From Prauserella flavalba (lineage in GTDB: Bacteria; Actinomycetota; Actinomycetes; Mycobacteriales; Pseudonocardiaceae), in the NCBI RefSeq assembly GCF_003202235.1, contig NZ_MASU01000005.1, forward strand, positions 1-64,000: DNA of 64,000 nucleotides, given 5' to 3'. Below, piece after piece: positions 5,099 to 61,878 of the stretch (its first letter is position 1; every line of letters begins with the position of its first letter). Both the position numbers and the translations under genes were made by a program. Under the pieces are notes generated by a model. That model worked only from the letters and a program-made list of their open reading frames with translations, made no database searches and was not told the DNA's origin.

Positions 5099-5102
5099 GT
5101 CG

Positions 5103-7909: not shown

Positions 7910-7949
7910 GTGCCGAACCGGGTCCGGGCCGCTCAGCACTCCGAACCCG

Positions 7950-47328: not shown

Positions 47329-48108
47329 CTAACTCGTGTAGTGGAACCGCACCCGGCTGCCCAGCCACACCGTCCTGGTGGTCTCCAGCAGGCGCCCGTC
47401 GGCGAGCCGCGCGACGGACAGGATGACGAACAGGGGCGCGTCGAGCGTCGTGTTGAGCAGCCGCGCCTCGTGGGCGTTCGCGGCGCCGACCTCCAGGAAG
47501 TGGTTGGTGTCCTCGGCGCGCAGGCCGAACACGTCCTGGAGGGTGCGGGACAGCGAGCCGTCGACGAGGGAGCGCCGCGCGAGCCGGGGCGCGACCGAGC
47601 GGACCACCCACGAGTCGGTGAGCCCGATCGCCCGGTCGTCCACCACGTGCAGGCGCTTGAGGTGGACGCGCCGGGCCTCGGCCTCCTCCTCGCCGAGCAG
47701 CTTGCGCAGCTCGTACGGTTCCGGTTCCTCCGGCTCGTCGCGCAGGTGCAGCGAGGACGCCGAGAGACCGGCCGCGGTGAACCGGTCCCGCCACGGGGTG
47801 GTCAGCCCGAAGTCGTGCTGGACCACCTCGGGGCGGTCGGCGACGAACGTCCCGGTGCCCTGGCGCCGCTCGACGTAGCCGTCGTTGGCCAGCTCCGTGA
47901 GCGCCTGCCTGATCGTGATGCGGCTGACCCCGTAGATCTCCGCGAGATCCCGTTCGGTGGGCAGCTGGTGCCCGGCGGGCAGTTCCTGGTCGATGAGGCG
48001 CCGGATGTCGCGCTGAACCTGCGCCCACGCGGGCATCGGCGACCGGCGCTCGACCGGAACGGCCGAGGCGCGGACCGCGTCGGGCGCCGTCTGCTGCCCC
48101 GTCGTCAT
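47329..48108 (-). CDS. GntR-family (UTRA/HutC-type) regulator
   Basis: 259 residues. Winged helix AQVQRDIRRLIDQELPAGHQLPTERDLAEIYGVSRITIRQAL and a UTRA ligand domain (EEAEARRVHLKRLHVVDDRAIGLTDSWVV). UTRA regulators sense sugars, sugar phosphates or nucleoside-like ligands. It lies downstream of the SIS/PfkB/YjbQ/ARH/ABC genes on the same strand, with its own 109-bp leader. It is the only regulator in the 47-62 kb block, so probably the controller of the whole locus, as YegW is next to yegTUV in E. coli. Confidence 0.87.
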   Translation of the reverse strand: MTTGQQTAPDAVRASAVPVERRSPMPAWAQVQRDIRRLIDQELPAGHQLPTERDLAEIYGVSRITIRQALTELANDGYVERRQGTGTFVADRPEVVQHDFGLTTPWRDRFTAAGLSASSLHLRDEPEEPEPYELRKLLGEEEAEARRVHLKRLHVVDDRAIGLTDSWVVRSVAPRLARRSLVDGSLSRTLQDVFGLRAEDTNHFLEVGAANAHEARLLNTTLDAPLFVILSVARLADGRLLETTRTVWLGSRVRFHYTS

Positions 48109-48166
48109 CGTGGACTCCCCATGCCTCGCCGCTGCGCGAGCGTACCCCTCAGACATTGGTCGCAAT

Positions 48167-48177
48167 GTTATAACCTC
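48167..48177. promoter_or_regulatory. GTTATAACCTC motif before the UTRA regulator
   Basis: gttataacctc lies 58 bp upstream of the regulator ATG in the 109-bp gap after the SIS gene. It repeats the core of the palindrome at 40558-40567. It may be an operator or contain a -10 element (tataac); which is unresolved. Confidence 0.45.
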
Positions 48178-48217
48178 TGGGTCGCGTCCGGCCAGGCGAC
48201 CCGCCCGCAGCGGGACG

Positions 48218-49165
48218 TCAGTCGTCCAGCTTGATGTGCCTGGCGTCCATGTTGACGGCGCCGCCCCGGAACGGCCGCCGCTCCCAGCGCGTGGCGGCGG
48301 CGTGCGCGACCGCGGCCCCCGCGATCGCCGCCGCGACGTCGGTGAGCACCTCGGCGTCGTCGCCGTCCACGATGTCCCGCACCGTGATCCGCCGGACCAC
48401 CTGGCCCGTGCCGACCAGCGCCTCGGCCAGCCGGTCGAACCGCGTGAGCCCGGCGGTACCGGCGAGGGCGAGCGTGAGGTGTCGCTGCGGGCCGATGAAG
48501 TAGTCCACGTGCCCGCTCTCCTCGAGCGGCACCACGCGGGCGGCGATGCCGGTGGCCTCGATGAGCTTGAGCGACCAGAAGTCCGCGGCACTGCGCAGTT
48601 CCGGCAGCGACAGGATCGAGATCGCGTGCGGTGCCTCCTCAGGAAGCTCCGCCACCGCCTGCTCGGCGAGCGCCCGGATCCGGGGCAGCGCGGCGGCCAG
48701 CCGTTCGGGCGCGGGTTTGACGTCCAGGCCGCACACCGCGGCGACACCCAGCGCGAGCATCACGTGTCCCGCGCACGGCACGGTCTCGGTCACCGGCAGC
48801 GCCGGTACGGGCTGCACGTCGGCGGCGGCCTCGGCGAGCGGCGAGTCCGGCCGCGACGTCACGGCGACCGTGTGCAGCCCGGCGCCGCGGGCCAGGCGCA
48901 GCGCCCTGACGGTGGCGCCCGAGGTGCCGGAGTGGGAGACGCCGACCACGGTGTCGCACCCGGGTGGGACGGACCCGGTCCAGGTGAGGTCCCCCGAGGA
49001 CAGGGCGCGGTGGCCGAAGCGGGCGGCGACCAGCGCCGAGGCCAGCGAGTCCCCCGAGCCGACGAGGACGGCGCGGCCCAGCGGCGCCGACAGCGGGGCT
49101 GGGGTGAGGGGCGCGATCCCGGCGAGTGCGGTTCCGAATGCGCCGAGGTCCGGCATGAGCGACAT
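48218..49165 (-). CDS. SIS-domain sugar isomerase/deaminase-like protein
   Basis: 315 residues with two SIS folds: RAVLVGSGDSLASALVAARF, VVGVSHSGTSGATVRAL (phosphosugar-binding Ser/Thr loop), and a C-terminal half with PLEESGHVDYFIGP. The size and the ES-G-H region resemble FrlB/AgaS/GlmS-isomerase-type proteins acting on 6-phosphosugars or their amine conjugates. It is 3 bp downstream of a PfkB kinase gene. A kinase-then-isomerase order fits phosphorylation of an imported sugar and its conversion to a central intermediate. Confidence 0.83.
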   Translation of the reverse strand: MSLMPDLGAFGTALAGIAPLTPAPLSAPLGRAVLVGSGDSLASALVAARFGHRALSSGDLTWTGSVPPGCDTVVGVSHSGTSGATVRALRLARGAGLHTVAVTSRPDSPLAEAAADVQPVPALPVTETVPCAGHVMLALGVAAVCGLDVKPAPERLAAALPRIRALAEQAVAELPEEAPHAISILSLPELRSAADFWSLKLIEATGIAARVVPLEESGHVDYFIGPQRHLTLALAGTAGLTRFDRLAEALVGTGQVVRRITVRDIVDGDDAEVLTDVAAAIAGAAVAHAAATRWERRPFRGGAVNMDARHIKLDD

Positions 49166-49168
49166 CGC

Positions 49169-50056
49169 TTACTGCTCCTTGTGCGTAATGATCCCGGGCA
49201 GCGGCGCGGACAGCGCCGCCGCGTGTTCCAGTGCTTCGTGTCCCCAGCCGGCGAGTGCGATCCTGGCGACGCTCGTGCCGAACGCGGCCGCCTCGACGGG
49301 TTCGGCGCCCCGCGCCAGCGCGGCCACCACGGCCGCGGCCGAGGCGTCGCCCGCGCCGGTGGTCTCGACGACCTCCGCGCGCCGGTCGCGGACCGACCAC
49401 GCCCCGGCCGACGTCACCACGTAGGCGCCGTCGGCGTCGAGCCGCGCCACGACGGGGATTCCCAGCCGGGCCGCCAGGTCGCGGGCGGCCCGGCGGGGAT
49501 CCCGGTCGAGCAGCGTGAGCTGGACCCGGCTGGGCAGCACGACGTCGGCATGTGCGGCGACGGCGCTCAGGTGCGCCATGCCCTCGGCGGCCACGTGGGT
49601 CTGGTGCGGGTCGATCCCGATGACCGGCGCCGCCGAGCGCGGGGGAGCGCTCCCCGGGGCGGAGGCGAGCAGGCCCGTGAGCCCGTGGTGGAAACCGGCT
49701 CCCGGGTCGGGCAGCGCGTCCTCGTTTCCCGGTTCGTCCCCACCGAGCTCGACCGGTGACGGCGCGGTCAGCCCGACGATGCGGCGGCCCCGCCGGGAGT
49801 TCAGGATCCACAGCCGGGTCGCCTCGGGCACGGTGGTGGCACAGGTCGTGTCGATGCCGAGTGCGGTGAACAGCGCGGCGAACCTCGGATCGTCGGCGGG
49901 CAGCGGGCAGCCGACCCGCACCCGCGTTCCCTCGACGAGCCGGGCCCCCAGCGCCGCGAACACCGCGGGACCGCCGAGGCACGAGAACCTGGCGCCGCGT
50001 CCCTCGGTGACGAGGTGGTCGACGGAGAGCCCGGCGTGGATGCCGACCACGCTCAT
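49169..50056 (-). CDS. PfkB-family carbohydrate kinase 1
   Basis: 295 residues of the ribokinase/PfkB family. The C-terminal signature ETTGAGDASAAAVVAAL contains the catalytic Asp; the N-terminal glycine pair is FSCLGGPAVFAALGARL. It likely phosphorylates a free sugar or nucleoside released by the glycohydrolases. ATG 50056 overlaps the YjbQ stop (ATGA). A second PfkB gene at 56812 has an altered active site, so this one is probably the working kinase. Confidence 0.86.
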   Translation of the reverse strand: MSVVGIHAGLSVDHLVTEGRGARFSCLGGPAVFAALGARLVEGTRVRVGCPLPADDPRFAALFTALGIDTTCATTVPEATRLWILNSRRGRRIVGLTAPSPVELGGDEPGNEDALPDPGAGFHHGLTGLLASAPGSAPPRSAAPVIGIDPHQTHVAAEGMAHLSAVAAHADVVLPSRVQLTLLDRDPRRAARDLAARLGIPVVARLDADGAYVVTSAGAWSVRDRRAEVVETTGAGDASAAAVVAALARGAEPVEAAAFGTSVARIALAGWGHEALEHAAALSAPLPGIITHKEQ

Positions 50057-50502
50057 CGGCCGAAGGCCGACACGGCGTAGCGCACGGTGCGGGTGCGGGG
50101 ACCGTCGAGCTCCAGCAGGTAGACGCCCTGGCTGTGCCCGATGGCGAGTTCGCCGCCGATCACCGGTAGCGTGAGCGACTGGGTGCCGAACACGCAGCGC
50201 ACGTGGGCGGCGGCGTCCTGCGGGCCGTCGTGGAGGTGCACGAACGGCCGGTCGACCGGAACCTGACCCTCGATGAACAGGCGGATGTCGTGCAGCGTCG
50301 TGCCGTCCACCCCGGAGTTGAGGATCAGCGTGCACGTGGTGTGCGGCAGGTAGACGTGCAGGGTGCCGTCCGCGGCCCCGGCGGGTACGGCCTCGCGCAG
50401 CCGCTCCGTCAGGTCGGTGTAGCCGACGGGTGCGGCGAAGCCCTCCTCGGGCTTGGTGTCCACGTCGAAGCTCTGCCAGGTGCCAAGGGTTTCGGTGCTC
50501 AC
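50053..50502 (-). CDS. YjbQ-family protein (secondary thiamine-phosphate-synthase type)
   Basis: 149 residues of the YjbQ/UPF0047 family: HVYLPHTTCTLILNSG and HVRCVFGTQSLTLPVIGGELAIGHSQGVYLLELDGP. E. coli YjbQ shows weak thiamine phosphate synthase activity in vitro, and its true role is uncertain. GTG 50502 shares GTGA with the upstream ARH stop; ATG 50508 is the alternative. Being locked between an ARH-fold hydrolase and a PfkB kinase is unusual and hints at a phosphosugar-related role here. Confidence 0.84.
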   Translation of the reverse strand: MSTETLGTWQSFDVDTKPEEGFAAPVGYTDLTERLREAVPAGAADGTLHVYLPHTTCTLILNSGVDGTTLHDIRLFIEGQVPVDRPFVHLHDGPQDAAAHVRCVFGTQSLTLPVIGGELAIGHSQGVYLLELDGPRTRTVRYAVSAFGR

Positions 50503-52610
50503 GCCCATGCCTTTCTCGGGGGTGTGTGGTGGTGCCCGGTGCCGGGCGTGCCGGTGACGTGGAACCCGTCGGCCAGGATCGTCCCGGTGTCGATGAGGAA
50601 GCCCGCGGCGCCGCCGAGGACCTCCGTGGTGTGCGCGGTGAGCAGGCGCGTGCCGTCGACGGTGAGCGCCAGCTCGGTTCCCGCGCAGCCGAGCCGCACG
50701 TCGTAGGTGCGGTCGCGGTCGTAGGGGAAGGGGCGTTCGGCGAGCACGGTGCGCGTGCCGTCGTGCTCGCGTACGAGTGCCACGCGGTCGCCGCCGGTGA
50801 AGACGCCGGCGTGGAACCGCCGGTGACCCCGCGCGCGGACGACGAGGCCGGCGGTGTCGTGGAGAGAGAACAGCAGCCTGCTGGCGACGGTGTAGTCCCG
50901 CCAGTCCCGCGTGCCGATGGTCACCACCCCGCCCGGTCCCGGGTGGGAGACGGAGTAGGTGACGGCGAAGTCGGCCTCGAAGTGCTTCGCCGAACTGACC
51001 CACGGGCGCAGTGCCGGGGGCGTGGTGTCCCAGATGGAGCCGAGCAGGATGCCGCTCTGTCCGAACCGGACCGGGGCGCCCGCCCAGCCGAGCTCGTGCA
51101 CCAGCACCGCGGCGCCCTGCTCCTCCGCGACGGCGAGGCCGAACCGGAACGGCACCAGGTTGCCCACGGCGGGCACCTCCCAGGCCAGCCGCCGGGGCTC
51201 GCTGCCCGCCCGCAGCTCGTCGCCGTACCGCGTCACCACGCCCTCCGCCGACTCGTACAGCGCGTACGGCCGCACGGCGCCGCCGGTGCCCGGTGCGGAC
51301 ACCAGCGCGACCACCCGCTGCCCCGGGTACAGCGTGGGGCTGGCGACGGTCGAGAAGTGCGTGAGGCGCTCGGCGGGGTCGAGGAAGACCGGGGTGGAAA
51401 CGTGACCTCCGTGTTCGACGCGCAGCGCCCGTCCGTCCGGTGTGGACACGTTGGTGAGCACCGTGTGGTCGCCGCCGAGGTGCGGGCACGGCGTGAATCC
51501 CTGCACCGAGCCCGGGTAGCGGAACCTGAACCTGGGCCGCTCGTCGGTGAGCCCGCCTCCGGCGAGCAGCGCGGAGGCGGCGACGATGCGGTCGGCTTCG
51601 AGCGTCGCGTCACTGACGCATTCGCCGCCGTCGGCGGTGACCACGAGCAGTCGGTCGGCCACGGGTGTGCGCAGGTCCGGTCCGCCGGAGAGCGCGTCGA
51701 GCCCCAGGCGCACGCCGTTGAGGCAGCCGACGACCCCGGCGTTGCTGTCGGTGTCGAAGCCGGCGGACGAGGCGATCGCGACCGAGCGCGCGAAGTCGTC
51801 ACCGGCGCCGAGCAGCGCGCCGAGCGTCATGGCGAGGTTCGCGAGGCTGTGGCAGGGCCCGGGGTAGTGCGCGTAGCCGTACCGCTCGTCCACCCAGTCG
51901 CGGATCTCCCGCCAGTGCCGGTGCGGGCCGCAGTGCGCACGGACGTCCTCCACGAGCCGCAGCACCGTGGCCGATCCGATGTGGAGGGTCCCCGCGTCGA
52001 GCAGCGTGCCGAGGTCGCGTTCGCCGAACGCCAGCGACCGCATGGCCGCCAGCAGTGCGGCGGCGTCGAGCGCGTCGCCGTCGTGGCTGACGCTCGCCGC
52101 CGCGCGGGTGAGCGCGACCGCGCGCTCGGGGTCGCCCGGCAGCATCAGCGCGAACGCGTCGTTGAAGATCTGCGCGCCGATCTGCTCGGCGAGCGTGGAC
52201 CCGTTCTGTTCCGTGGATCCGCTGCGAGGCGCGGGAACGCCGGCGCGCAGGTTCAGGTACGCCGTGTGCTCGGTGGAGCGGCCCAGCCCGCCCCACCACA
52301 GGATGGTGCGGTCCTCGATGATGTAGTTGAGCCACGTCCGTCCGGCCCGCTCGGCGGTCGGCGGCTCTCCCGCGTTGTCGGGCACGGTCCTGCCGAAGGC
52401 GAACGTGGCCGAGATGTCGTCGTCGGCGACGATGAGCGGCAGGCCCAGTTCGGCGCTGACGTAGCGTTCGACGAGCCCGAACCGGTGCTGGATGTCGGCG
52501 TAGGGCCAGCCCTCCACCGGCCGTCCGAGGTAGACGCCGATGAGCTTGCCGAGCACCCCGGCGTAGACCCGTTCCGCGTAGTGCTCTTCCTGAGGGGACG
52601 GTGTGCTCAT
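50499..52610 (-). CDS. ADP-ribosylglycohydrolase-fold enzyme with C-terminal beta-sandwich regions, copy A
   Basis: 703 residues; ordinary ADP-ribosylglycohydrolases have about 300-360. Residues 1 to about 340 form the helical ARH domain: AGVLGKLIGVYLGRPVEGW, metal loops ADDDISATF and GFDTDSNAGVVGCLNG. The rest is beta-rich: about 370-500 with SPTLYPGQRVVAL, and about 520-690 resembling a concanavalin/LamG-type fold (DWRDYTVASRLLFS, HRRFHAGVF, AAGFLIDTGTILADGFHV). No signal peptide, so it is cytoplasmic. It probably hydrolyses an N- or O-glycosidic bond to ribose or a similar sugar in the imported compound. ATGA overlap with the permease gene. Paralogue at 57804. Confidence 0.85.
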   Translation of the reverse strand: MSTPSPQEEHYAERVYAGVLGKLIGVYLGRPVEGWPYADIQHRFGLVERYVSAELGLPLIVADDDISATFAFGRTVPDNAGEPPTAERAGRTWLNYIIEDRTILWWGGLGRSTEHTAYLNLRAGVPAPRSGSTEQNGSTLAEQIGAQIFNDAFALMLPGDPERAVALTRAAASVSHDGDALDAAALLAAMRSLAFGERDLGTLLDAGTLHIGSATVLRLVEDVRAHCGPHRHWREIRDWVDERYGYAHYPGPCHSLANLAMTLGALLGAGDDFARSVAIASSAGFDTDSNAGVVGCLNGVRLGLDALSGGPDLRTPVADRLLVVTADGGECVSDATLEADRIVAASALLAGGGLTDERPRFRFRYPGSVQGFTPCPHLGGDHTVLTNVSTPDGRALRVEHGGHVSTPVFLDPAERLTHFSTVASPTLYPGQRVVALVSAPGTGGAVRPYALYESAEGVVTRYGDELRAGSEPRRLAWEVPAVGNLVPFRFGLAVAEEQGAAVLVHELGWAGAPVRFGQSGILLGSIWDTTPPALRPWVSSAKHFEADFAVTYSVSHPGPGGVVTIGTRDWRDYTVASRLLFSLHDTAGLVVRARGHRRFHAGVFTGGDRVALVREHDGTRTVLAERPFPYDRDRTYDVRLGCAGTELALTVDGTRLLTAHTTEVLGGAAGFLIDTGTILADGFHVTGTPGTGHHHTPPRKAWA

Positions 52611-53431
52611 CCCTTGACCGACCCGCTGGCGATGCCGTCGACGACGTAGCGCTGGAGCGCCACGAAGATCGCCAGCACGGGGGCGATGAGGATGAGGGCC
52701 CCCGCCATCATGGCGCCCAGCTCCGTGGAGAAAGTGCCGTTCATCGAGAGGAAGCCGAGGGTCACCGTCTGCTGATCGGGATCCTGCAGGAACGTCGCCG
52801 AGATGAGGAATTCGTTCCACGCGTTGAGGCCCACCACCACGCCGACGGTGATCAGCCCCGGCCGGACGATCGGCAGCAGCACGTGCCACACGAACTGCGC
52901 GGTGCTGACGCCGTCGACCTGCGCGGCCTCCTCGAGCTCCCTGGGCACGTTGAGGAAGAACGTGCGCATGAGGAACGTCGCGAACGGGATGTTGATCGCG
53001 GCGATGATCACGCCGACCACCATCGGGTTGTCGAGGAGGTCGACGGCCGCGACGATCGAGTACAGCGGGAAGACGAACAGCTGCACGGGCACCGTCATCG
53101 CCATCGTCAGGTACACCATGACCACCGGCCACGACCTGATCTTCTTGCCCGCCAGCACGTATCCGGCCAGCGTCGAGCACGTGAGCACCACCACGACCGT
53201 GGTTCCGGTGAGCAGCACGCTGTTGAGAAAGCCCGTGCCGAACTCGCCGTAGGTCCACGCGGTCACGAAGTTCTCGAACGTGAACGTGCTCGGCAGGGCC
53301 AGCGGGTTGCGCACGATCTCGGTGTTGGTCTTGACGCTGTTCAGCAGCACCAGCGCCAGCGGGAACAGTGCCGTGGCGGCGAAGAACAGCAGGACGGCGT
53401 GCGCGCCGATCCCCTTGAGCCGGGTGGTCAT
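52607..53431 (-). CDS. CUT1-type ABC transporter permease (MalG-like)
   Basis: 274 residues, six membrane helices. The EAA loop EEAAQVDGVSTAQFVWHVLLPIVRPG docks the ATPase. It pairs with the MalF-like permease; the two genes overlap by one base (TGATG). No ATPase gene is present, as is common for actinobacterial CUT1 importers that share an MsiK-type ATPase. Confidence 0.9.
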   Translation of the reverse strand: MTTRLKGIGAHAVLLFFAATALFPLALVLLNSVKTNTEIVRNPLALPSTFTFENFVTAWTYGEFGTGFLNSVLLTGTTVVVVLTCSTLAGYVLAGKKIRSWPVVMVYLTMAMTVPVQLFVFPLYSIVAAVDLLDNPMVVGVIIAAINIPFATFLMRTFFLNVPRELEEAAQVDGVSTAQFVWHVLLPIVRPGLITVGVVVGLNAWNEFLISATFLQDPDQQTVTLGFLSMNGTFSTELGAMMAGALILIAPVLAIFVALQRYVVDGIASGSVKG

Positions 53432-54357
53432 CAGTCGTCCTGCTTCCTGCTCATCCACGTGTAGACGCAGGAGGCGATGAGCCCGAAGAAGCTCATCACC
53501 AGCGCCACCGCGGAGGCCTTCCCGAACTGGAAGGCGGAGAACGCGAACGCGTAGGCGTAGGTGCCCAGCACCTCGCTGGAGTGCGCGGGACCGCCCTGCG
53601 TCAGCAGGTAGATGTAGTCGAAGGCGAGGAAGGAGAAGATCACCGTCATGACGGCCATGAGCAGCAGAGCGGGCCGGATGCTCGGCAGGTACACGTTGCG
53701 GAACACCTGCCAGGAGTCGGCGCCGTCCATGATGGCCGCCTCCACCTGATCGACCGGGGTCTGGCGCATCGCGCCGAGGTAGATCACGGTCAGGAAGCCC
53801 CAGTAGTGCCACATGTCCACCGCCGCGGCGGCGTAGAAGGCACCCGTGAGGCTGGACAGCGGCGCGGACACGGGAAGCCCGATGTCGTTGAGCGTGCCCA
53901 CGAGCCCGCCGTTGGGGTTGTAGATGATGCTCAGCCAGATCAGCGCGTTCACCACGGGGGAGAGCACGTACGGCATGAGGTAGACGACCTGGTAGAAGGT
54001 GCGCGTCCGGCGCCTGCGCAGCAGCAGCCACGCGGTGAGCAGGCCGAGCACGGCCGGGATCGTCAGGAACATCGCCACCCAGCGCAGGTTGTTCTCCAGC
54101 GCGGTGCCGAACACGGGGTCGGCCAGTATCTCCCGGAAGTTCCGCAGCCCCACCAGGTTCGCGTCGAGCCCGACACCGCTCCAGTCGGTGAAGGCCGTGA
54201 ACGCGGTGAGCAGGCCCGGGATCACGACGATGCCGACGGACAGCAGCAGCGCCGGTGCGATGAGCAGGTGGTTGATCAGCGTGCGGCGCCGCCGGAAGCG
54301 CGCGGGGCGGCGGGCCGGGGCCGGCGTGGTGGTGGGGCGAACCGCGGTCACGGTCAC
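53431..54357 (-). CDS. CUT1-type ABC transporter permease (MalF-like)
   Basis: 308 residues with a basic cytoplasmic N-terminus (PARRPARFRRRRTLINH), six helices and the EAA loop VEAAIMDGADSWQVFRNVYLPSIRPA. It forms the channel with the MalG-like partner. Preceded by a stem-loop that separates it from the solute-binding protein gene. Confidence 0.9.
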   Translation of the reverse strand: MTVTAVRPTTTPAPARRPARFRRRRTLINHLLIAPALLLSVGIVVIPGLLTAFTAFTDWSGVGLDANLVGLRNFREILADPVFGTALENNLRWVAMFLTIPAVLGLLTAWLLLRRRRTRTFYQVVYLMPYVLSPVVNALIWLSIIYNPNGGLVGTLNDIGLPVSAPLSSLTGAFYAAAAVDMWHYWGFLTVIYLGAMRQTPVDQVEAAIMDGADSWQVFRNVYLPSIRPALLLMAVMTVIFSFLAFDYIYLLTQGGPAHSSEVLGTYAYAFAFSAFQFGKASAVALVMSFFGLIASCVYTWMSRKQDD

Positions 54358-54376
54358 CTCGGGCTCCTTCCTGCGC

Positions 54377-54409
54377 CGCCGGGTGCGCGGTCGCGCCGCA
54401 CACCCGGCG
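54377..54409 (-). promoter_or_regulatory. Stem-loop between solute-binding protein and permease genes
   Basis: cgccgggtg (54377-54385) pairs with cacccggcg (54401-54409) in the 60-bp gap. Such hairpins after the first gene of CUT1 operons reduce read-through or protect the upstream message, so more binding protein is made than permease (inference). Confidence 0.6.
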
Positions 54410-54417
54410 TGGCAGTG

Positions 54418-55764
54418 CTAGTTCGACGGCTCCGGGGCGGGCGGCACGAGTCCCTTCGCCTTGTCGGCGTCGAAGCTCGCCTGCACCTTGGTGAGGAACT
54501 CCGCCGCGCCGACCTGACCGAGCCAGACGCCGTCGACGTCGGCAAGCGTCGTCGAGGTGGACGGCGGGAAGAACGTGCCGGGGTAGAGCCCGTAGTGTCC
54601 CTCGTTGATCGCCGACACCAGCTTGCCGACCGTGCCGATGTACTCCTTCGACAGCCCGGTGTACTCGGCCGCGGGCAGGTCGAAGTCCTTCAGCGGCACG
54701 CCCCAGTAGCCGGGCCACGTCTTGTTGATCTCCTTGGCGAACGGCGCGCTCATCATGTAGTCGATCACCGCGGCGGCGCCGTCCTTGTGGTCGGAGGCGG
54801 CGTTGATCGACAGCGACGCCGTGGCGCCGAGGGTGTACATGGGGGAGGGCAGGTCGGGGTTGACGTTGGGGAACGGCATGAAGCCGAGGTCGCCGGTGTT
54901 CCCGGCCTCGTCGTTGAAGTACTCGCTGGCGAACTGGAAGCCGAGGCTCGGCCCGATGAAGAACGGTGACTTCTCGTCCGCGAGCAGCTGCATGGACTCG
55001 ACGAAGTTGAGGTTCGCGTAGTCGTCACCGGCGAGGTAGCCGTCGCGGTAGAACTCGGCCGAGGCCTCGACCGCCTCGACGATCTCGGGGTCCGTCCACT
55101 TCGCCTCGCCGTGGAGCGCGTCGTACGTCGCCTTCCCGCCCGCGAGGTGGGTGAGGAAGATCGAGATGTAGTTGAGGTTGACCGGTTTCCAGCCCTTGTT
55201 ACCCGTCACGGAGGCGTAGAGCCCCTCGGCCTTCGCCTTGTCCATCGCCGTGGTCAGATCGGCGTAGCTCTCCGGAACCGCGACGCCCAGCCGGTCGAGC
55301 ACCTTCTTGTTGTAGAACACACCGAGCGTGTCCACCGAGTTCGGCAGCGAGTAGAGCTTGCCGCCGATGGTGCCGGACTCGTACATCGGCTCCAGCAGCC
55401 GGTCCTTCCAGCCGTACTGCTCGGCGTACGGGGTCATGTCGGCCAGCTTGTCCTCCGCGACGTAGGCGGCGGCGAAGGCGGGGCCGGACCCGTAGACGAC
55501 GTCGGGTCCCCGGTCGGCGGAGAGGGCGACCTGGATGTTCTTGTCGACGGCGTTGTTGAAGTTGATGTCGAGCGAGTAGGTGTCCTGTGCCCGCTCGAAG
55601 CCCTCGACGAGCGCGGTCTCGAGCGCCTTCTGGTGCTCCGGCGGGGCTCCCCAGAACCACAGCTCGAGACGTTCCCTGCCGTCACCGGCTCCCGAACACG
55701 CGGACAGCGTGAGCGTGAGCGTGGCCGCGAGCGCGCCCAGGACCGTGGTCCGGCTTCTCCTCAT
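54418..55764 (-). CDS. CUT1-type ABC transporter solute-binding lipoprotein
   Basis: 448 residues. Lipoprotein signal peptide with lipobox LSAC, Cys23. The mature part is of extracellular solute-binding family 1: LELWFWGAPPEHQKALETAL, YSLPNSVDTLGVFYNKKVL, GFMPFPNVNPD. First gene of the leftward operon (SBP-MalF-MalG-ARH-YjbQ-PfkB-SIS). It captures an oligosaccharide- or glycoside-like ligand; the surrounding enzymes suggest a nucleoside- or ribosyl-containing one. ATG 55764 behind aaggag. An operator-like repeat lies 54-79 bp upstream. Confidence 0.9.
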   Translation of the reverse strand: MRRSRTTVLGALAATLTLTLSACSGAGDGRERLELWFWGAPPEHQKALETALVEGFERAQDTYSLDINFNNAVDKNIQVALSADRGPDVVYGSGPAFAAAYVAEDKLADMTPYAEQYGWKDRLLEPMYESGTIGGKLYSLPNSVDTLGVFYNKKVLDRLGVAVPESYADLTTAMDKAKAEGLYASVTGNKGWKPVNLNYISIFLTHLAGGKATYDALHGEAKWTDPEIVEAVEASAEFYRDGYLAGDDYANLNFVESMQLLADEKSPFFIGPSLGFQFASEYFNDEAGNTGDLGFMPFPNVNPDLPSPMYTLGATASLSINAASDHKDGAAAVIDYMMSAPFAKEINKTWPGYWGVPLKDFDLPAAEYTGLSKEYIGTVGKLVSAINEGHYGLYPGTFFPPSTSTTLADVDGVWLGQVGAAEFLTKVQASFDADKAKGLVPPAPEPSN

Positions 55765-55817
55765 GGGACAACTCCTTGGGTCTGAGAGTTCGGTCGCCAG
55801 CGCAGCGCTGCGGCGGT

Positions 55818-55843
55818 GCCAATTGGTAATATTGGCAGTACCA
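55818..55843. promoter_or_regulatory. Overlapping operator-like inverted repeats upstream of the ABC/ARH operon
   Basis: gccaat-tggtaat-attggc (55818-55836) is a perfect 6-bp inverted repeat. Interlaced with it is tggta-N10-tacca (55824-55828 / 55839-55843). It sits in the 112-bp gap before the solute-binding protein gene, on the promoter side. The GGTA/TACC half-sites recur in direct repeats at 57765-57779, so one GntR/UTRA protein may read both. Confidence 0.65.
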
Positions 55844-55876
55844 TAAGACCGAGTTCGGGGTGTGTCAACGTTCTCG

Positions 55877-56788
55877 TCACCCGTGCTCGTGCGGCGCGGG
55901 AAGCCAGTGCTCCGCCGCCGTCGCGGCCTTCTGCTCGTCGAGCCGGGCGAGGTGCACCAGCGCGGCCAGTGCCACGTCGATCGACGCCGCGTGTCCCGCG
56001 CCTGCCTCGAATCGCCGGTTCGCGAGCACGTTGTCGGCGACCGAGCACACCGAGCCGCCGCGCCTGCCGAACAGCGCGGCGAGCGTGACCACCGCGGCCG
56101 ACTCCCGGTCGCCGTTGAGCACCCCGGCGCGGGCCCAGCCGTCGAGGATGTCGCGGTGGTGCGGCTGGAAGTAGGCGCCGGCGCCGGGCCGTCCCACGCC
56201 GACGAAGTCGGAGTCGCTCGAGCGCGTCACGCCCTGGTGGTAGCGGCAGCCGAGCTGCCCGGCGGCCAGTGACAGCGCCAGTACCACCTCGTAGCTCGCG
56301 ACCGCCGGGTAGCTCGCGGGCACGTAGGCGCGGGTCATGCCTTCGTCGCGCACCACGCCGGTGCTGATCACGATGTCGCCGGGCCGGACGCGGGGATGGA
56401 CGCCGCCGGAGCCGCCGACCCTGATGAACGTGTCGGCCTCGGTGAACTCGATCAGCTCGTGCAGGATGAGCTCGGCCTCGGGGGAGCCGCTGCCCCCGGA
56501 GGCGACGGTGACCCCGACGCCGCGGTAGGTGCCCGAGTAGGTGCTGAACATCCCCGACCTGCCCACCTGCTCGGCGTCGTCGAGGCGGCGGGCGAGCTGC
56601 GCGGCGGGATCCTCGTCGTACGCGCACAGTGGATCGCGCACGGTCAGCAGGACGTACCTCGCGATCCGGCCGGGGTCGATGCCCGACAGCGCGGGCCTGC
56701 CGTCGATCAGCAGGCCGCGGCGCGGCAGGTTGCCCGCGTAGCGGTAGGTGTCGTAGGGCTCGGTCGGGTTCCAGCCGGGCTGCTCCAC
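55877..56788 (-). CDS. Nucleoside phosphorylase (uridine/purine phosphorylase family)
   Basis: 303 residues of the NP-I family: SGTYRGVGVTVASGGSGSPEAELILHELIEF (phosphate/ribose site), TFIRVGGSGGVHPRVRPGDIVISTGVVRDEGMTR, and a C-terminal NGDRESAAVVTLAALF segment with the catalytic-type Glu. It splits nucleosides with phosphate to ribose-1-phosphate and base. GTG 56788 behind gaggagacc. It ends 112 bp before the ABC operon and is co-directional with PfkB 2, 23 bp away. Confidence 0.86.
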   Translation of the reverse strand: MEQPGWNPTEPYDTYRYAGNLPRRGLLIDGRPALSGIDPGRIARYVLLTVRDPLCAYDEDPAAQLARRLDDAEQVGRSGMFSTYSGTYRGVGVTVASGGSGSPEAELILHELIEFTEADTFIRVGGSGGVHPRVRPGDIVISTGVVRDEGMTRAYVPASYPAVASYEVVLALSLAAGQLGCRYHQGVTRSSDSDFVGVGRPGAGAYFQPHHRDILDGWARAGVLNGDRESAAVVTLAALFGRRGGSVCSVADNVLANRRFEAGAGHAASIDVALAALVHLARLDEQKAATAAEHWLPAPHEHG

Positions 56789-56811
56789 ACGGTCTCCTCA
56801 CTCCTGGGTGG

Positions 56812-57723
56812 TCAGGGGTGCACGCGGACCCGGCCCGCTCTGGCCGTCACGTCCGCGCGCAGGGCCTGGTCGATCGGCGGCGCGCCGTTCTGGGCGATCA
56901 CGACGCTCGCGGCGGCGGCCGCGTACCGGGCCGCGCACCGGGCGTCACCGGTGCGCGCGAAGGCCGCGAGGAAGGCGCCGGAGTGGCTGTTGCCCCCGCC
57001 CGTCGGGTCCACGACCGCCCCGGGCGCCACGCCGGCGTGCAGGAGGTGACCGTCCGCGCACACGACGGCGCCATCGGCGCCCCCGCGCAGCACGAGCACC
57101 AGGCCCGGCCGCCCGAGCGCGCGGTGGACCTCCGCCGGGTCGGTGGTGCCGAGCAGTGAGCGCGCCTCGGCGACGTTCAGGGAGAGCACGTCGACGGCGG
57201 TGACGAGCTCGCGCACCGTGGCGACGTTGCCGGGCTCGCACGCGTCGGCCGCGATCTCCCACAGCAGCGGCCCGTGCCAGCGCTGCCGGAACGCCGTGAT
57301 CTCGGCCCAATAGCGGGGCTCGGTGTCGTGGAAGAGGTACACGCCGCCGAGGCGGGCGGGCGGCACCGGCAGGTGACGCGGCAACGGCGTGTGCGCGGCG
57401 AAGTGCTCCGCGCCGAACACCGGCTCCTCCACCCGCTCGCCCTCGTGGTCGTAGCGGATCCGGGTGAGCGGGCTGCGCTCGCCGTGCACGAACAGTCCCG
57501 CGGGCTCGACCTGGCGTTCCCGGAACCACCGCACGAGCGCGGGCCGGTCGCGCGCGCCCGCGCCGGACACGATCACGGTGCTCCACGGCTCGCCGGCGAG
57601 GCTGGCCCCGGTGGCGGCGTAGGCGCCCGCGCCACCCACCTCGCGTGCCAGGAACTCGCCGTCCGCGCCGTAGATCTCGTCGGTCACGGCGTGTGAGAGC
57701 ACGGCGACAAGCTCGGTGGGCAT
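56812..57723 (-). CDS. PfkB-family kinase 2 with GGGN in place of GAGD (MAK32-like)
   Basis: 303 residues of the ribokinase fold (REVGGAGAYAATGASLAG near the N-terminus). The C-terminal signature reads DPTGGGNSHSGAF: the catalytic Asp of GAGD is Asn. Similar DPTGGGN motifs occur in fungal MAK32-like proteins of unknown activity. It may be a binding protein, a regulator, or use another base. First gene of the leftward unit PfkB2-phosphorylase, and divergent from the second ARH gene across 80 bp. Confidence 0.84.
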   Translation of the reverse strand: MPTELVAVLSHAVTDEIYGADGEFLAREVGGAGAYAATGASLAGEPWSTVIVSGAGARDRPALVRWFRERQVEPAGLFVHGERSPLTRIRYDHEGERVEEPVFGAEHFAAHTPLPRHLPVPPARLGGVYLFHDTEPRYWAEITAFRQRWHGPLLWEIAADACEPGNVATVRELVTAVDVLSLNVAEARSLLGTTDPAEVHRALGRPGLVLVLRGGADGAVVCADGHLLHAGVAPGAVVDPTGGGNSHSGAFLAAFARTGDARCAARYAAAAASVVIAQNGAPPIDQALRADVTARAGRVRVHP

Positions 57724-57759
57724 CGGCGTTCGTCCGCTCTGTTCGGTAGATTCTTCTGG

Positions 57760-57779
57760 TTGTTATACCTACAATACCT
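57760..57779. promoter_or_regulatory. Repeat-rich divergent promoter, PfkB 2 / ARH copy B
   Basis: atacct occurs twice as a direct repeat 9 bp apart (57765-57770 and 57774-57779). Overlapping it, ttgt-N7-acaa forms a short inverted repeat (57760-57774). It is AT-rich for this genome and centrally placed in the 80-bp divergent gap. Confidence 0.55.
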
Positions 57780-57803
57780 TTCACTGGACCGGAAGGGGAG
57801 TAC

Positions 57804-59912
57804 ATGAGCGAGCGGCCCGTTCCCGACTACGCGAGGCAGGTCTACGCCGGGGTACTCGGCAAGATCATCGGTGTCTACTTCGGACGCCCGGTCGAGGGCT
57901 GGTCGTATCCCGCCATCCGCGAGCGCTTCGGTGAGCTCGAGTACTTCGCCTGCGGCGAGCTGGGCGTGCCGCTGGTCGTGCCCGACGACGACATCTCGGG
58001 CGCCTTCGTCTTCCCCCGCGCCATCCTCGACAACGCGGGCCGGGGGGTCACCGCCGCCGACGTCGGACGGACGTGGCTGAACTACATCGTCGAGAACCGC
58101 ACCGTGCTGTGGTGGGGCGGGCTGGCCCGCTCCACGGAGCACACCGCGTTCCTGCGGCTGAAGGACGGGGTCGACCCGCCGCGTTCCGGCTCGATCGCCC
58201 TCAACGGCCGGTCCATGGCCGAGGGCGTGGGTGCGCAGATCTTCATCGACGGCTGGGCGCTGGCCTGCCCCGGCGACCCCGAACGGGCCGTCGCGCTCGC
58301 GCGGGCCGCCGCCTCGGTGAGCCACGACGGGTTCGCGGTGGAGTCCGCCGCGTTCCTCGCTGGCATGGAGGCGGCGGCGTTCGGCGAGCGGGACCTCGCG
58401 AAGCTGTTGGAGCTCGGCCTGTCGTCCGTGACCGACGACCGGGTACGGGCACTGGTGACCGCGACGGTGGAACAGTGCGAAGCCACCGGCGACTGGCGGC
58501 GCGTGCGCGACTGGATCGAACGCGAGCACGGCTACCACCGGTATCCGGGCAACTCGCCCGCCGCGACCAACCTCGCCGCCGTGCTCATGGCACTGCTCAT
58601 GGCGGGTGACGACTTCCAGCGGAGCCTCACGCTCGTCGTCTCGGCCGGCTGGGACACCGACTCCAACGCGGGCAACGTCGGCTGCCTCAACGGGATCCGG
58701 CTCGGACTCGACGGCATCGAGGCCGGGGTGGACCTGCGCGGTCCGGTCGCCGACCGGATGCTGGTGGTCAGCGCGGACGGCGGGGAGTGTGTCACCGACG
58801 CCGTGCGCGAGACGCGGCGGCTGCTCGCCTCCGCCGCGGCGCTGCGGGGGGAGCCCGCGCCGAGGGACCTGCCGCGCTACGCCTTCGAGCTGCCCGGTTC
58901 CACCCAGGGCTGGCTCCCACACCACGACGCCCGGCACGCCCAGGCGCTGACGGGGCTCCGCAACCCGGGCGGCGGGCTGCGCCTGGAGTTCGCGCGGCTG
59001 GCGCGCGGCGCGCGGGCGGCGGCCGCGGTCGAGGTGTTCGCCTCGCCCGTCCCGACCGGGGCGGCGGGCACGAGCCTGTTCGAGGTGGTCGGCAGCCCCG
59101 CGCTGTACCCGGGCCAGACCGTGCGCGCGGTGGTGGACGTGCCCGCCGGGCCGGCGCCCTCGCTCGCCTTCTTCGTCGAGCACTACGGCGACGACGGGGT
59201 CGTGCACACGCTGCGCGGCGCGCTCCGCCCGCTGCACGCGGGTGAGAACACCCTGGTGTGGGACGTTCCCGCGACGGGAGGGCAGGCCGTCTACCGGTTC
59301 GGCGTCGAGCTCACGTCGGCCCGCCGTCTCGACGGCCACGTCACGGTGCGCTCGGTGGACTGGCGCGGCGCCCCGAAGGACTTCGTGCTCGGCAGGGCCG
59401 ACGAGCTGTCCCCGGCGCTCACGCCGTGGACCACCGTCACCGGCTGGCTGAAGACGTTCGTCAGCTCGGCCGCGAACCTGGCTCCCGACTACACGACCAC
59501 GTTCACGGTGTCGCACCCGGAGGCCAACGGGGTCGTCACCACCGGCACGCGGGACTGGACCGACTACTCGGTGGCCTCCACGATCACGTTCAACATGCAC
59601 GACGCGGCCGGGCTCGTCGCGCGGGCCAGGGGCCACCGCCGCTACTACGCCGCCGTGCTGCGCGCGGGACGCGCCCAGCTGCTGCGCCGCGTCGACGGCA
59701 CCGAGCACATCGTCGCCGACGCCCCGTTCGCCTACGAGATCGACGCGGTGCACGCGCTGGAGTTCACCGTGCGCGGCAGTGCGCTGACCCTGCGGATCGA
59801 CGGCGAGGCCGTGGCCACCGGTACCGACGACATGCTGCCCTCGGGTGGCGCCGGCTTCCTCATCGACCGCGGATCCGTTCTCGCTCAAGGGTTTCACGTA
59901 CGCCGCGCGTGA
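57804..59912 (+). CDS. ADP-ribosylglycohydrolase-fold enzyme with C-terminal beta-sandwich regions, copy B
   Basis: 702 residues, same architecture as copy A at 50499. The ARH domain has AGVLGKIIGVYFGRPVEGW, PDDDISGAF and GWDTDSNAGNVGCLNGIRLG. The beta-rich parts have SPALYPGQTVRAVV, DWTDYSVASTITFN and GAGFLIDRGSVLAQGFHV. The two copies are clearly homologous over their full length but diverged, so they may act in sequence or on different linkages. First gene of the rightward operon ARH-nucleoside hydrolase-adenine deaminase. ATG 57804 behind ggaagggga. No signal peptide: a cytoplasmic enzyme. Confidence 0.85.
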   Translation: MSERPVPDYARQVYAGVLGKIIGVYFGRPVEGWSYPAIRERFGELEYFACGELGVPLVVPDDDISGAFVFPRAILDNAGRGVTAADVGRTWLNYIVENRTVLWWGGLARSTEHTAFLRLKDGVDPPRSGSIALNGRSMAEGVGAQIFIDGWALACPGDPERAVALARAAASVSHDGFAVESAAFLAGMEAAAFGERDLAKLLELGLSSVTDDRVRALVTATVEQCEATGDWRRVRDWIEREHGYHRYPGNSPAATNLAAVLMALLMAGDDFQRSLTLVVSAGWDTDSNAGNVGCLNGIRLGLDGIEAGVDLRGPVADRMLVVSADGGECVTDAVRETRRLLASAAALRGEPAPRDLPRYAFELPGSTQGWLPHHDARHAQALTGLRNPGGGLRLEFARLARGARAAAAVEVFASPVPTGAAGTSLFEVVGSPALYPGQTVRAVVDVPAGPAPSLAFFVEHYGDDGVVHTLRGALRPLHAGENTLVWDVPATGGQAVYRFGVELTSARRLDGHVTVRSVDWRGAPKDFVLGRADELSPALTPWTTVTGWLKTFVSSAANLAPDYTTTFTVSHPEANGVVTTGTRDWTDYSVASTITFNMHDAAGLVARARGHRRYYAAVLRAGRAQLLRRVDGTEHIVADAPFAYEIDAVHALEFTVRGSALTLRIDGEAVATGTDDMLPSGGAGFLIDRGSVLAQGFHVRRA

Positions 59913-59945
59913 GCCGTTCCCAGAGCCCCGTCACGAAGGAGGCAC

Positions 59946-60902
59946 GTGAAGAACCTGCACATCGACACCGACCCCGGCATGGACGACGCGCTGGCGCTCA
60001 TCCTCGCGCTCAAGTCGCCCGCCGTCCGGGTTCGCGCGATCACCGCGGTCACCGGCAACCTGCCCGCCGACCGGACGGCCGCCAACGCGCTGCGGATCCT
60101 GGACCTCATGGGCCGCAAGGACATCCCCGTCGCGCGCGGCCCGCTCGTGCCGCTGGACGGCGATTACCCGGCCGACCCTTTCTCCCACGGCAGTGACGGC
60201 CTCGCCGAGTCGCACCTGCCCGAGTCCGCGCAGCCGCTCGACGAGCGGGACGCGGCACGGCTCATCGTCGACACCGTCGACGCGCACGCGGGCGACATCA
60301 CGATCGCCGCGCTCGGCCCGCTCACCAACGTCGCGCTGGCGCTGGAGCTCGACCCCGGGCTGCCGGCGAAGGTCGCCGAGCTCGTCATCGTCGGCGGGTC
60401 GTTCGGCACCACGCCGTACGCGTGGTCGCAGGCCACCGGCGACAATCCGGTCAGCGAGTGGAACGTCTACGTCGACCCCGAGGCCGCGCACCGGGTGTTC
60501 CACGCCGGGTTCCGGCTCACCGCCGCCGGGCTCGACATCGCCACCCACCCCGGCGTGAACTTCCGCGACGGCGACCTCGCCGCCCTGCGGCGGGCCGGAA
60601 CGCCCGAGTCCGAACTGGCCCTGCGCGTGGTGGACTACGTGCACGGGCGCGGCTACCAGTCGTACTGCTCGCTCATCGACAGCGTCGCCATCGCGACCGT
60701 GCTCGACCCCACACTCGCCGAGACGGAGCCCCTGCACTGCGACGTCGAACGGCGTGGCGAGTTGACCAGGGGGATGACCGTGGTCGAACGTCGGGCCCAC
60801 CACGGCCGGACCGACCTGCCGCGCATCGACGTGATGCGCGGTCTCGACTTCCCCCGGTTCCTCGATCTCGTGACGGAGGCCCTCGGTGCACCCGCAGCCT
60901 GA
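59946..60902 (+). CDS. Nucleoside hydrolase (inosine-uridine preferring family)
   Basis: 318 residues. Calcium/ribose motif HIDTDPGMDDALAL near the N-terminus, AALGPLTNVALAL, NPVSEWNVYVDPEAA and the final metal Asp in LIDSVAIATVLDP. The position of the usual leaving-group His near that Asp is Ile. It hydrolyses ribonucleosides or a ribosyl compound to ribose plus base. GTG 59946 behind aaggagg. Overlaps the deaminase gene by 17 bp. Confidence 0.88.
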   Translation: MKNLHIDTDPGMDDALALILALKSPAVRVRAITAVTGNLPADRTAANALRILDLMGRKDIPVARGPLVPLDGDYPADPFSHGSDGLAESHLPESAQPLDERDAARLIVDTVDAHAGDITIAALGPLTNVALALELDPGLPAKVAELVIVGGSFGTTPYAWSQATGDNPVSEWNVYVDPEAAHRVFHAGFRLTAAGLDIATHPGVNFRDGDLAALRRAGTPESELALRVVDYVHGRGYQSYCSLIDSVAIATVLDPTLAETEPLHCDVERRGELTRGMTVVERRAHHGRTDLPRIDVMRGLDFPRFLDLVTEALGAPAA

Positions 60903-61878
60903 CCGGATTCCCTCGCCGCTGGCCGAGTTGCACCTGCACCTCGAGGGCACGCTCGAACCGGAGCTGATCTTCGAACTGGCCCGGCGCAACGGCGTCACGC
61001 TGCCCTACCGGGACCTCGACGACCTGAGGGCGCGGTACCGGTTCCGCGATCTGCAGTCCTTTCTGGACCTCTACTACGCGAACATGGCCACGCTGCGCAC
61101 CGCCGCCGACTTCGAGCGGCTGACGTGGGCCTACGCCGAGCGGGCCCATGCCGGGGGAGTGCGGCACGCGGAGGTGTTCGTCGACCCGCAGGCCCACACG
61201 GCGCGCGGGGTGCCGACCGAGACCGTGCTGCGGGGCGTGGCCGCGGGCCTGGGGCGCGCCGAGTCGGAACTCGGGCTCACCAGCGGGATCATCGTGTGCG
61301 TGCTCCGGGACCGCCCCGTCGCGGAGGCCCGGCGCATGCTGGAGGAGTCGCTCGCCGCCGGGGTGCCGCTGCTCGGCATCGGGCTCGACTCCGCCGAGGT
61401 GGGCTATCCGCCGAGCCTGTTCGCGGACGTGTTCACGGCCGCGGCCGAGGCCGGGCTGCGGCGCGTCGCGCACGCCGGGGAGGAGGGGCCTCCGGAGTAC
61501 CTCTGGCAGGCACTGGACGTGCTCGGGGTGGAGCGCGTCGACCACGGCGTGCGCTGCCTCGAGGACGACGTGCTGGTGCGCAGGCTCGCCGCCGAGCAGG
61601 TGCCGCTGACGGTGTGCCCGCTGTCCAATGTCCGGCTCAGGGTGGTCGACGACCTCGCCGCCCACCCGCTGCGGCGGATGCTGGACCGCGGCCTGCTGGT
61701 GACGCTCAACTCCGACGACCCCGCGTACTTCGGCGGCTACGTGGACGACAACCTCCGGCAGTGCCGCGACACCCTCGGCCTCACCGGCGCGGAGCTCGCG
61801 ACCCTGGCCGCGAACTCGGTCCGCGCGTCCTTCGCCGGTGCCGGGCGCAAGGCGGAGCTGCTCGCGCGGCTCGGGTAG
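60886..61878 (+). CDS. Adenine/adenosine deaminase, adenine deaminase type
   Basis: 330 residues of the adenosine-deaminase superfamily: zinc motif ELHLHLEGTLEPELI, catalytic HAGEEGP, VDHGVRCL and LNSDDPAYFGG. The insert FRDLQSFLDLYYANMATL and the run TWAYAERAHAGGVRHAEVFVDPQAHTARG are typical of the adenine deaminase subgroup (adenine to hypoxanthine) rather than adenosine deaminase. Following a nucleoside hydrolase, it would take freed adenine onward. GTG start. Ends one base from the convergent kinase gene. Confidence 0.88.
   Translation: MHPQPDRIPSPLAELHLHLEGTLEPELIFELARRNGVTLPYRDLDDLRARYRFRDLQSFLDLYYANMATLRTAADFERLTWAYAERAHAGGVRHAEVFVDPQAHTARGVPTETVLRGVAAGLGRAESELGLTSGIIVCVLRDRPVAEARRMLEESLAAGVPLLGIGLDSAEVGYPPSLFADVFTAAAEAGLRRVAHAGEEGPPEYLWQALDVLGVERVDHGVRCLEDDVLVRRLAAEQVPLTVCPLSNVRLRVVDDLAAHPLRRMLDRGLLVTLNSDDPAYFGGYVDDNLRQCRDTLGLTGAELATLAANSVRASFAGAGRKAELLARLG

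Follow-up and report, generated by a model that had tools for sequence, protein, structure and literature searches.

A conserved gene cluster around two giant ADP-ribosylglycohydrolase-fold proteins in Prauserella flavalba and its putative role in ribosyl nucleoside catabolism

Known enzymes of the ADP-ribosylglycohydrolase (ARH) family cleave alpha-ribosides. The fructoselysine operon frl combines the SIS protein FrlB, the PfkB kinase FrlD, the GntR/UTRA regulator FrlR and the CUT1-type importer FrlONM, which comes without an ATPase of its own. In Escherichia coli, the yegTUV-yegW (ggaR) locus encodes a GntR regulator along with a PfkB-type sugar kinase and a protein of the ARH family, and a role in ADP-glucose or glycogen metabolism, with ADP-glucose sensing by GgaR, is proposed for it (PMC10819704). 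Here, we analyzed a stretch of 64,000 nucleotides from the actinobacterium Prauserella flavalba (contig NZ_MASU01000005.1, positions 1 to 64,000, hereafter the window), in which a cluster at positions 47329-61878 unites gene classes from these systems.

An earlier note, made from the letters of the window alone, had listed here an importer, two ARH-fold enzymes, two PfkB kinases, a SIS protein, YjbQ, a phosphorylase, a nucleoside hydrolase, a deaminase and a GntR/UTRA gene, and had assigned them to the import and breakdown of an unusual ribosyl-linked compound. All Pfam families named for the window genes score above cut-off, the SIS family weakly, and the interpretation is partly supported, i.e., right in outline with the substrate unproven. 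On balance, we favour a co-regulated unit for import and catabolism of a compound with ribofuranosyl and adenine or adenosine parts. Uptake would proceed via a binding protein and MalF/MalG-type permeases, with the ATPase encoded elsewhere. An O-ribofuranosyl or related furanosyl bond would be hydrolysed at a two-metal site by the pair of ARH-fold enzymes, both with a CBM66-like module (as modelled for ARHB), and nucleoside hydrolase and phosphorylase would cut the base-sugar bond. The purine would then be deaminated by adenosine deaminase, or by adenine deaminase in some Bacillota, and ribose would reach central metabolism via ribokinase.

Co-occurrence of the cluster genes and their operator-like site

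Related loci were gathered by ARH similarity. From 392 relatives confirmed in the genome collection, the best 80 were kept, corresponding to 76 distinct loci. These were annotated with hidden Markov models built from the window proteins and from recurring neighbours in the same loci, at score thresholds that we set ourselves. Using the locus map, and before a tree was made, we set apart 22 loci whose ARH proteins are more distant (group B, i.e., L090-L107, L082, L084, L086 and L088; ten of them long) from 54 group-A loci, 40 of at least 18 kb and 14 shorter. Judged by title, some group-A loci stem from one genome, namely three from Lactonifactor longoviformis DSM 17459, two from Devosia insulae DS-56 and two from the metagenome-assembled genome RUG11868.

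The nucleoside hydrolase was the most constant partner, present in 39/40 long group-A loci. The importer genes for the solute-binding protein, MalF and MalG were found in 37/40 each, SIS in 37/40, YjbQ and PfkB2 in 35/40 each and the phosphorylase in 28/40. Less constant were a gene for a protein resembling nucleoside 2-deoxyribosyltransferase (NDT-like, 17/40), GntR (16/40), ribokinase-like genes (13/40), AdeC-like adenine deaminase genes (9/40), PfkB1 (5/40) and adenosine deaminase (4/40). In group B, SIS, YjbQ, PfkB2, phosphorylase and NDT-like genes were each found in 0/22 loci, the nucleoside hydrolase in 1/22 and the solute-binding protein in 9/22. Fisher tests of group A against group B treat related loci as independent and were not relied on. 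The neighbourhood search had been set beforehand as the check on the claim that these genes travel together, and they do. Core-gene order and strand fell into 36 patterns over the 54 group-A loci, a number to which truncated contigs contribute. That gene content is kept while order changes speaks for function and not for mere descent of one block.

Near the home taxon the giant ARH proteins are rare. Among 298 genomes of the order, only G025 and the own genome yielded full-length relatives, and among 296 genomes of the phylum only the own one did; counting in matches to the ARH domain alone, the numbers rise to 12/298 and 3/296, own genome included. The neighbourhood in G025 (L020, L021) holds a ribokinase-like gene and an importer, and SIS, YjbQ, phosphorylase and nucleoside hydrolase are all missing from it. 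A separate set recurs in seven further loci from relatives of the order (L022, L024-L029). An ARH gene whose product is about 30% identical to ARHB is accompanied there by another ARH-like gene, a CUT1-type importer and a ribokinase-like gene, and the set perhaps serves a simpler route for ribosides.

We also searched with the phosphorylase as anchor. Among 394 genomes of the class, eight besides the own genome had a match, with one close relative in G892 (64% identity); in a search of 298 genomes, G165 was the sole match besides the own genome. The G892 locus (L118) contains genes for GntR, PfkB2, SIS, YjbQ, PfkB1, phosphorylase, a second SIS, solute-binding protein, MalF, MalG, ARHA, a ribokinase-like protein, nucleoside hydrolase and adenosine deaminase. 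Neighbourhoods were viewed for three of the eight (G892, G836, G728) and for G165, the remaining five copies being 33-38% identical; the cluster was missing beside the phosphorylases of G836 (42%), G728 (35%) and G165 (41%, on a contig of 14 kb).

In the window, the genes lie in three runs. A minus-strand run from the solute-binding protein gene through MalF, MalG, ARHA, YjbQ, PfkB1 and SIS to GntR extends from 55764 down to 47329, the PfkB2-phosphorylase pair occupies the minus strand from 57723 down to 55877, and ARHB, nucleoside hydrolase and adenosine deaminase lie on the plus strand at 57804-61878. A 21-base site recurs in the gaps of related actinobacterial loci. We built a matrix from four such sites of other genomes, chosen by eye and with the window excluded, so that its scores measure similarity and are no formal test. 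Over the 64-kb window, the top score of 30.1 fell at 57758-57778 (minus strand) in the divergent PfkB2/ARHB gap and the next separate site, scoring 19.3, at 55825-55845 (plus strand) upstream of the solute-binding protein gene. The best score outside these two gaps was 9.45, which agrees with the operator-rich gaps described earlier. The GntR/UTRA protein (47329-48108, minus strand; ATG at 48108; Pfam GntR 70.5 and UTRA 66.6 bits on 47329-48057) probably controls the cluster through this shared operator-like site. Its top matches lie in L075, L077, L081, L085 and L087 with 57-76% identity; many Bacillota and some Alphaproteobacteria loci, read by eye, have LacI-type genes instead. The neighbourhood counts, the phosphorylase-anchored search and the shared site together support the conclusion that the genes form one functional unit.

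ARH-fold proteins and nucleoside enzymes

ARHA (50499-52610, minus strand) and ARHB (57804-59912, plus strand) each have about 700 residues and show 49% identity across 709 aligned columns, i.e., over nearly their full length. Against a gathering score of 26.2 bits for Pfam ADP_ribosyl_GH (PF03747), ARHA scored 152.2 bits (from its third codon onward) and ARHB 172.2 bits, so that the description as two giant ARH-fold enzymes stands. Neither protein matched any NCBIfam family at E ≤ 0.001, the equivalogs for DraG and ADP-ribosylarginine hydrolase included. In an alignment of 74 ARH sequences (72 of 97 ARH proteins and the two from the window), E31, D61, D62, D63, D284, T285 and D286 are invariant, and we take E31, D61-D63, D284 and D286 to be the counterparts of the ARH3 metal ligands and catalytic Glu.

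The structure model of ARHB, computed with the 74 aligned sequences, has a mean predicted local distance difference test (pLDDT) score of 94.5. In structure searches, for which Foldseek was also run, residues 4-348 matched ARH3 (6g1p_B; Z 32.6, root-mean-square deviation (rmsd) 3.2 over 306 residues), DraG (2woc_A, Z 31.0) and ARH1 (Z about 28). Residues 528-701 matched Bacillus subtilis CBM66 (4b1m_B; Z 22.6, rmsd 1.8 over 152 residues, 13% identity). Unlike the structure search, a sequence search of the PDB with full-length ARHB gave no match at E 0.001. As modelled, ARHB is an ARH3/DraG fold joined to a CBM66-like C-terminal module. By analogy with the ARH family, it likely hydrolyses a furanosyl bond, with two metals holding the cis-diol. 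For the ribosyl cleavage claimed in the earlier note, this means that fold (in the ARHB model) and active-site positions bear the enzyme class out.

We placed 106 ARH sequences in a tree by a quick method, with open reading frames above 780 residues cut to their last 720; 23 forks stayed open. ARHA falls into a clade of 43 rows (support 91; one fork within it, at 92, is open) and ARHB into a clade of 40 rows (support 99); the outgroup has 22 rows. The group-B locus L084 has a long branch and falls on the side of group A, and the other 21 group-B loci are in the outgroup together with G025. Both clades span Bacillota, Actinomycetota, Chloroflexota, Pseudomonadota and Spirochaetota, and the pair hence most likely goes back to an old duplication. 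ARHA and ARHB are then old paralogues whose copies were often retained together; many loci showed only one ARH copy. The host genome (8.09 Mb, 39 contigs) has a third ARH gene of ordinary size on contig C30 (open frame of 376 aa).

On the base side, the window phosphorylase (55877-56788, minus strand; Pfam PNP_UDP_1, 93.2 bits) represents its own subfamily within the PNP/UDP superfamily. It is 45-73% identical to 26 cluster relatives across phyla (26 of the 29 cluster copies aligned with the window protein) and does not reach the cut-off of the uridine phosphorylase equivalog TIGR01718 (157.2 vs 280.3 bits). Near its C-terminal end, it has an Asp in the motif VADN, presumably at the position of the catalytic Asp of purine phosphorylases. 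The nucleoside hydrolases of the clusters, including that of the window (59946-60902, plus strand; Pfam IU_nuc_hydro, 265.5 bits), carry C..ID.mA near residues 241-248; other nucleoside hydrolases presumably have a His before the Asp at this position. An NDT-like protein of about 370 residues with two nucleoside 2-deoxyribosyltransferase stretches was seen in L044 (18794-19933) and L042 (18677-19795).

The deaminase (60886-61878, plus strand; Pfam A_deaminase, 310.7 bits) passes NCBIfam adenosine deaminase equivalogs (462.2 vs 419 and 350.5 vs 216.55 bits); the earlier note had found the enzyme, for which its label adenine deaminase is the less apt one. An adenine deaminase proper, AdeC, occurs in L039, the sole Bacillota version tested for AdeC (609.2 vs 472.5 bits). 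With these two enzymes the base side looks purine-like, which favours the earlier interpretation. In other loci, we found a phosphopentomutase (L049, 528 vs 256 bits) and ribokinases above the equivalog cut-off of 299.65 bits (L039, 319; L061, 340.2), the latter near a deoxyribose-phosphate aldolase gene, deoC (278.1 vs 117.3 bits). L061, from a Clostridia metagenome-assembled genome, has a small set of DeoC, ribokinase and ARHA at 4763-8730. Taken together, the window adenosine deaminase and the ribokinase, AdeC and phosphopentomutase of related loci suggest that the pathway yields ribose and adenine.

Salvage is the classical role of hydrolase, phosphorylase and deaminase, and the cluster might be read as a redundant collection of known enzymes for ordinary nucleoside salvage. 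Such a function, however, has no place for two ARH enzymes, SIS and YjbQ, nor would it account for the conserved motifs that phosphorylase, YjbQ and PfkB2 have to themselves. Moreover, a CUT1 importer is unusual for nucleosides. We consider plain salvage very unlikely.

Sugar-side proteins, importer and candidate substrates

The Asp of the GAGD motif is catalytic in PfkB kinases. PfkB1 (49169-50056, minus strand; Pfam PfkB, 52.8 bits) has the canonical motif, which was found in 7/8 relatives, the remaining one without pattern match. PfkB2 (56812-57723, minus strand; Pfam PfkB, 59.5 bits) has Asn in place of this Asp. Its pattern G(G/A)GN occurs in 39/41 sequences, and the Asn is invariant in all 36 aligned ones (35 of 39 PfkB2 proteins and that of the window), among them one of the two that miss the pattern. 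As judged from this motif, PfkB2 is possibly a pseudo-kinase or an enzyme with altered chemistry. It scored 35.5 bits on the ribokinase equivalog TIGR02152, below the cut-off of 299.65. The PfkB2 model (pLDDT 96.7) has a ribokinase fold (3h49_A; Z 28.9, rmsd 2.9 over 285 residues), and the search with it singles out no substrate, since ribokinases, nucleoside, pseudouridine and sugar kinases tie within 1. Among 23 ribokinase-like genes, ten have GAGD, one has GAGE and twelve do not match the pattern. The phosphorylation and isomerisation of the sugar proposed earlier gains from the two ribokinases above cut-off among six kinases tested; the Asn in PfkB2 keeps the step tentative.

The SIS protein of the window (48218-49165, minus strand; Pfam SIS, 25.8 bits against a cut-off of 25) is a short form. 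A long form of about 380 residues resembles the isomerase half of GlmS, and L079 and L118 have both forms within one cluster. In the PDB, the window protein matched 3eua, a putative fructose-aminoacid-6-phosphate deglycase (E 4.3e-5, over a stretch of 45 residues), in a near-tie with 4s12, an N-acetylmuramic acid 6-phosphate etherase (E 6.6e-5). The motifs K..EA.G, E...H and S-x-S-G occur in 95% or more of the 45 rows aligned from both forms, and we take the Glu/His pair to mark active positions of GlmS/FrlB-type enzymes. The YjbQ/UPF0047 protein (50053-50508, minus strand; Pfam 94.3 bits; TIGR00149 83.2 vs 67.75 bits) belongs to a distinct subfamily, whose motifs PQDAA-H and G-x-S-Q are common to 39 rows and differ from two solved YjbQ proteins. 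Proteins of the YjbQ family are widespread and have no agreed function.

These proteins bring the frl operon to mind, and a fructosamine-like (Amadori) pathway could act on a glycated purine or glycosylamine, with ARH and nucleoside enzymes freeing the base part. The gene classes correspond as given above, the best PDB match of SIS, in the near-tie described, is a putative deglycase, the long SIS form matches the GlmS isomerase half, the Glu, His and S-x-S-G positions are kept, and PfkB1 with its canonical motif adjoins SIS. On the other hand, the SIS protein scored 20.3 bits on the fructoselysine deglycase equivalog (cut-off 430), the families listed for the two PfkB proteins do not include the fructoselysine kinase equivalog, and PfkB1 was scored in just 5/40 long loci. 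Moreover, ARH enzymes, phosphorylase and nucleoside hydrolase are unneeded in the frl pathway. We consider an Amadori pathway unlikely.

The importer consists of a CUT1-type solute-binding protein (54418-55764; Pfam SBP_bac_1, 79.6 bits) and permeases of MalF type (53431-54357; BPD_transp_1, 66.3 bits) and MalG type (52607-53431; BPD_transp_1, 68.4 bits), all on the minus strand. No ATP-binding cassette ATPase is among the genes annotated in 47329-61878. Tryptophans are invariant in 36 aligned binding proteins (35 of 39 binding proteins and that of the window). The two best relatives are named just 'ABC transporter', and relatives do not fix the ligand; named relatives with a known ligand type bind chitin- or xylo-oligosaccharides. 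As the importer is of the CUT1 type and not a typical nucleoside importer, we expect a substrate larger than a nucleoside.

Importer relatives of this kind would suit an ordinary cluster for arabino-, ribo- or fructofuranosides, in which the nucleoside genes handle a side product. CBM66 is a family known for fructan, and in L099 (6341-10010) a group-B giant ARH gene lies directly behind a gene for the arabinosylfuranosidase ArfA (768.3 vs 625 bits), from which the ARH family may act on several furanosides. Against this stand the near-constant nucleoside hydrolase (39/40), the recurrence of adenosine or adenine deaminase, phosphopentomutase and ribokinase, and group B, where the hydrolase is found once in 22 loci and the other nucleoside genes not at all. 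We give ordinary furanoside utilisation a low probability.

Our best reading of the substrate class is an O-ribosyl purine nucleoside or a close relative. Within it, gene content suggests 2'- or 3'-O-ribosyladenosine as the most likely candidate, which we name tentatively. These compounds, similar to TIR-made cyclic ADP-ribose isomers except for a missing pyrophosphate, are also found within poly(ADP-ribose) and tRNA. Ribosyladenosines accumulate in plants as immune-response metabolites, where they are beta-linked (PMC6290457). HopAM1 carries a TIR domain (PMC9298051), and 2'/3'-ribosyladenosines build up in TIR-dependent responses and resemble 2'/3' cyclic ADP-ribose (2'/3'cADPR) minus the pyrophosphate (PMC10242710). 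A rather doubtful extension is that the cluster serves dedicated O-ribosyladenosine catabolism, by which bacteria of five phyla might live on what ADP-ribosylation and NAD-based immunity leave as by-products, with ARH enzymes turned into catabolic glycosidases.

Several observations weigh against our proposal. SIS and YjbQ are constant members, yet superfluous for ribosyladenosine catabolism, and the fact that SIS, YjbQ and PfkB2 have no job in this route is the strongest reason for caution; the substrate may accordingly carry one more unit, e.g., a second sugar or an amine. PfkB2 is without the usual catalytic Asp, and four of the six kinases tested lie below the ribokinase cut-off (L044, 199.5; L021, 266; L052, 82.4; L102, 72.1). 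The phosphorylase is missing in 12/40 long group-A loci, and the long loci L045, L074, L076 and L080, as well as L061 (16.8 kb), are without much of the gene set, the SIS matches of L076 and L080 lying at the extreme locus edge. Known ligands of the binding protein relatives and the ArfA neighbour of L099 also point elsewhere, and the beta linkage of the plant compound speaks against ribosyladenosine, given alpha-riboside-acting ARH enzymes.

We weighed further substrates, i.e., poly(ADP-ribose) pieces, the ribosyladenosine of initiator tRNA, the alpha-adenosine of pseudo-B12 and glycated purines, but none of them accounts better for SIS, YjbQ and PfkB2. The same holds for a thiamin-related substrate, prompted by YjbQ and by a 5-formyltetrahydrofolate cyclo-ligase-like gene that lies in the cluster with a small ARH gene in five loci (L047, L050, L051, L052 and L054). 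This gene adjoins SIS in L047, L051 and L052, and an extra PfkB is present in four of the five.

One gene set over five phyla ties together orphan families, i.e., the giant ARH proteins, the YjbQ and phosphorylase subfamilies, the Asp-less PfkB, SIS and the NDT-like protein. Linked to one pathway, each becomes testable against a short list of substrates, and YjbQ is placed in a metabolic setting. Should ribosyladenosine be the substrate, the cluster would show a natural fate of TIR and PARP end products.

A radical SAM gene lies near or just upstream of the ARH gene in L045 (7664-8428) and L076 (9188-9955), and also in L074 and L080; the L076 copy reached no equivalog cut-off in our scan. In the window, the cluster is followed on the low-coordinate side by a nitronate monooxygenase-like gene (45999-46955) and a glutamate-cysteine ligase-like gene (44523-45998), and on the high-coordinate side by a protein kinase gene (61879-63315) and an FCD-domain gene from 63395, all of which look unrelated to it. 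Rfam and tRNA searches of the window gave no match.

Comparison with known systems

Judged by titles and the beginnings of abstracts, this gene combination is not described in the open-access library searched, in agreement with the earlier note, which knew of no such pathway. The likeness to E. coli yegTUV-yegW drawn there holds for the ARH, PfkB and GntR classes; the transporter type differs, being a nucleoside-symporter-type protein of the major facilitator superfamily in E. coli and a CUT1 importer in the window. A second ARH, SIS, YjbQ, phosphorylase, hydrolase and deaminase are found only in the window cluster. An ADP-glucose- or glycogen-related function as proposed for yegTUV-GgaR would rest on the shared classes and on gel shifts in which ADP-glucose frees GgaR from DNA. 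In that study, however, yegTUV is described without an ABC importer, SIS, YjbQ, phosphorylase or hydrolase (PMC10819704), and we regard this function as extremely improbable here.

The frl operon shares importer, kinase, SIS and regulator classes with the cluster and differs in having neither ARH nor nucleoside enzymes; the frl equivalog models, in turn, are not reached by the SIS and PfkB proteins of the window. With ARH3 and DraG, ARHB has in common the fold of residues 4-348 and the metal and glutamate positions, whereas it has a longer beta-rich C-terminal half, the last part of which is CBM66-like, and its gene is part of a catabolic cluster. Deo and related nucleoside catabolic sets resemble it in phosphorylase and deaminase and, in some loci, in phosphopentomutase, ribokinase or DeoC; the window differs from them by an oligosaccharide-type importer, the ARH pair, the SIS and YjbQ proteins and the replaced Asp of PfkB2. 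We place the cluster among the sugar and nucleoside catabolic clusters, of which it is a variant.

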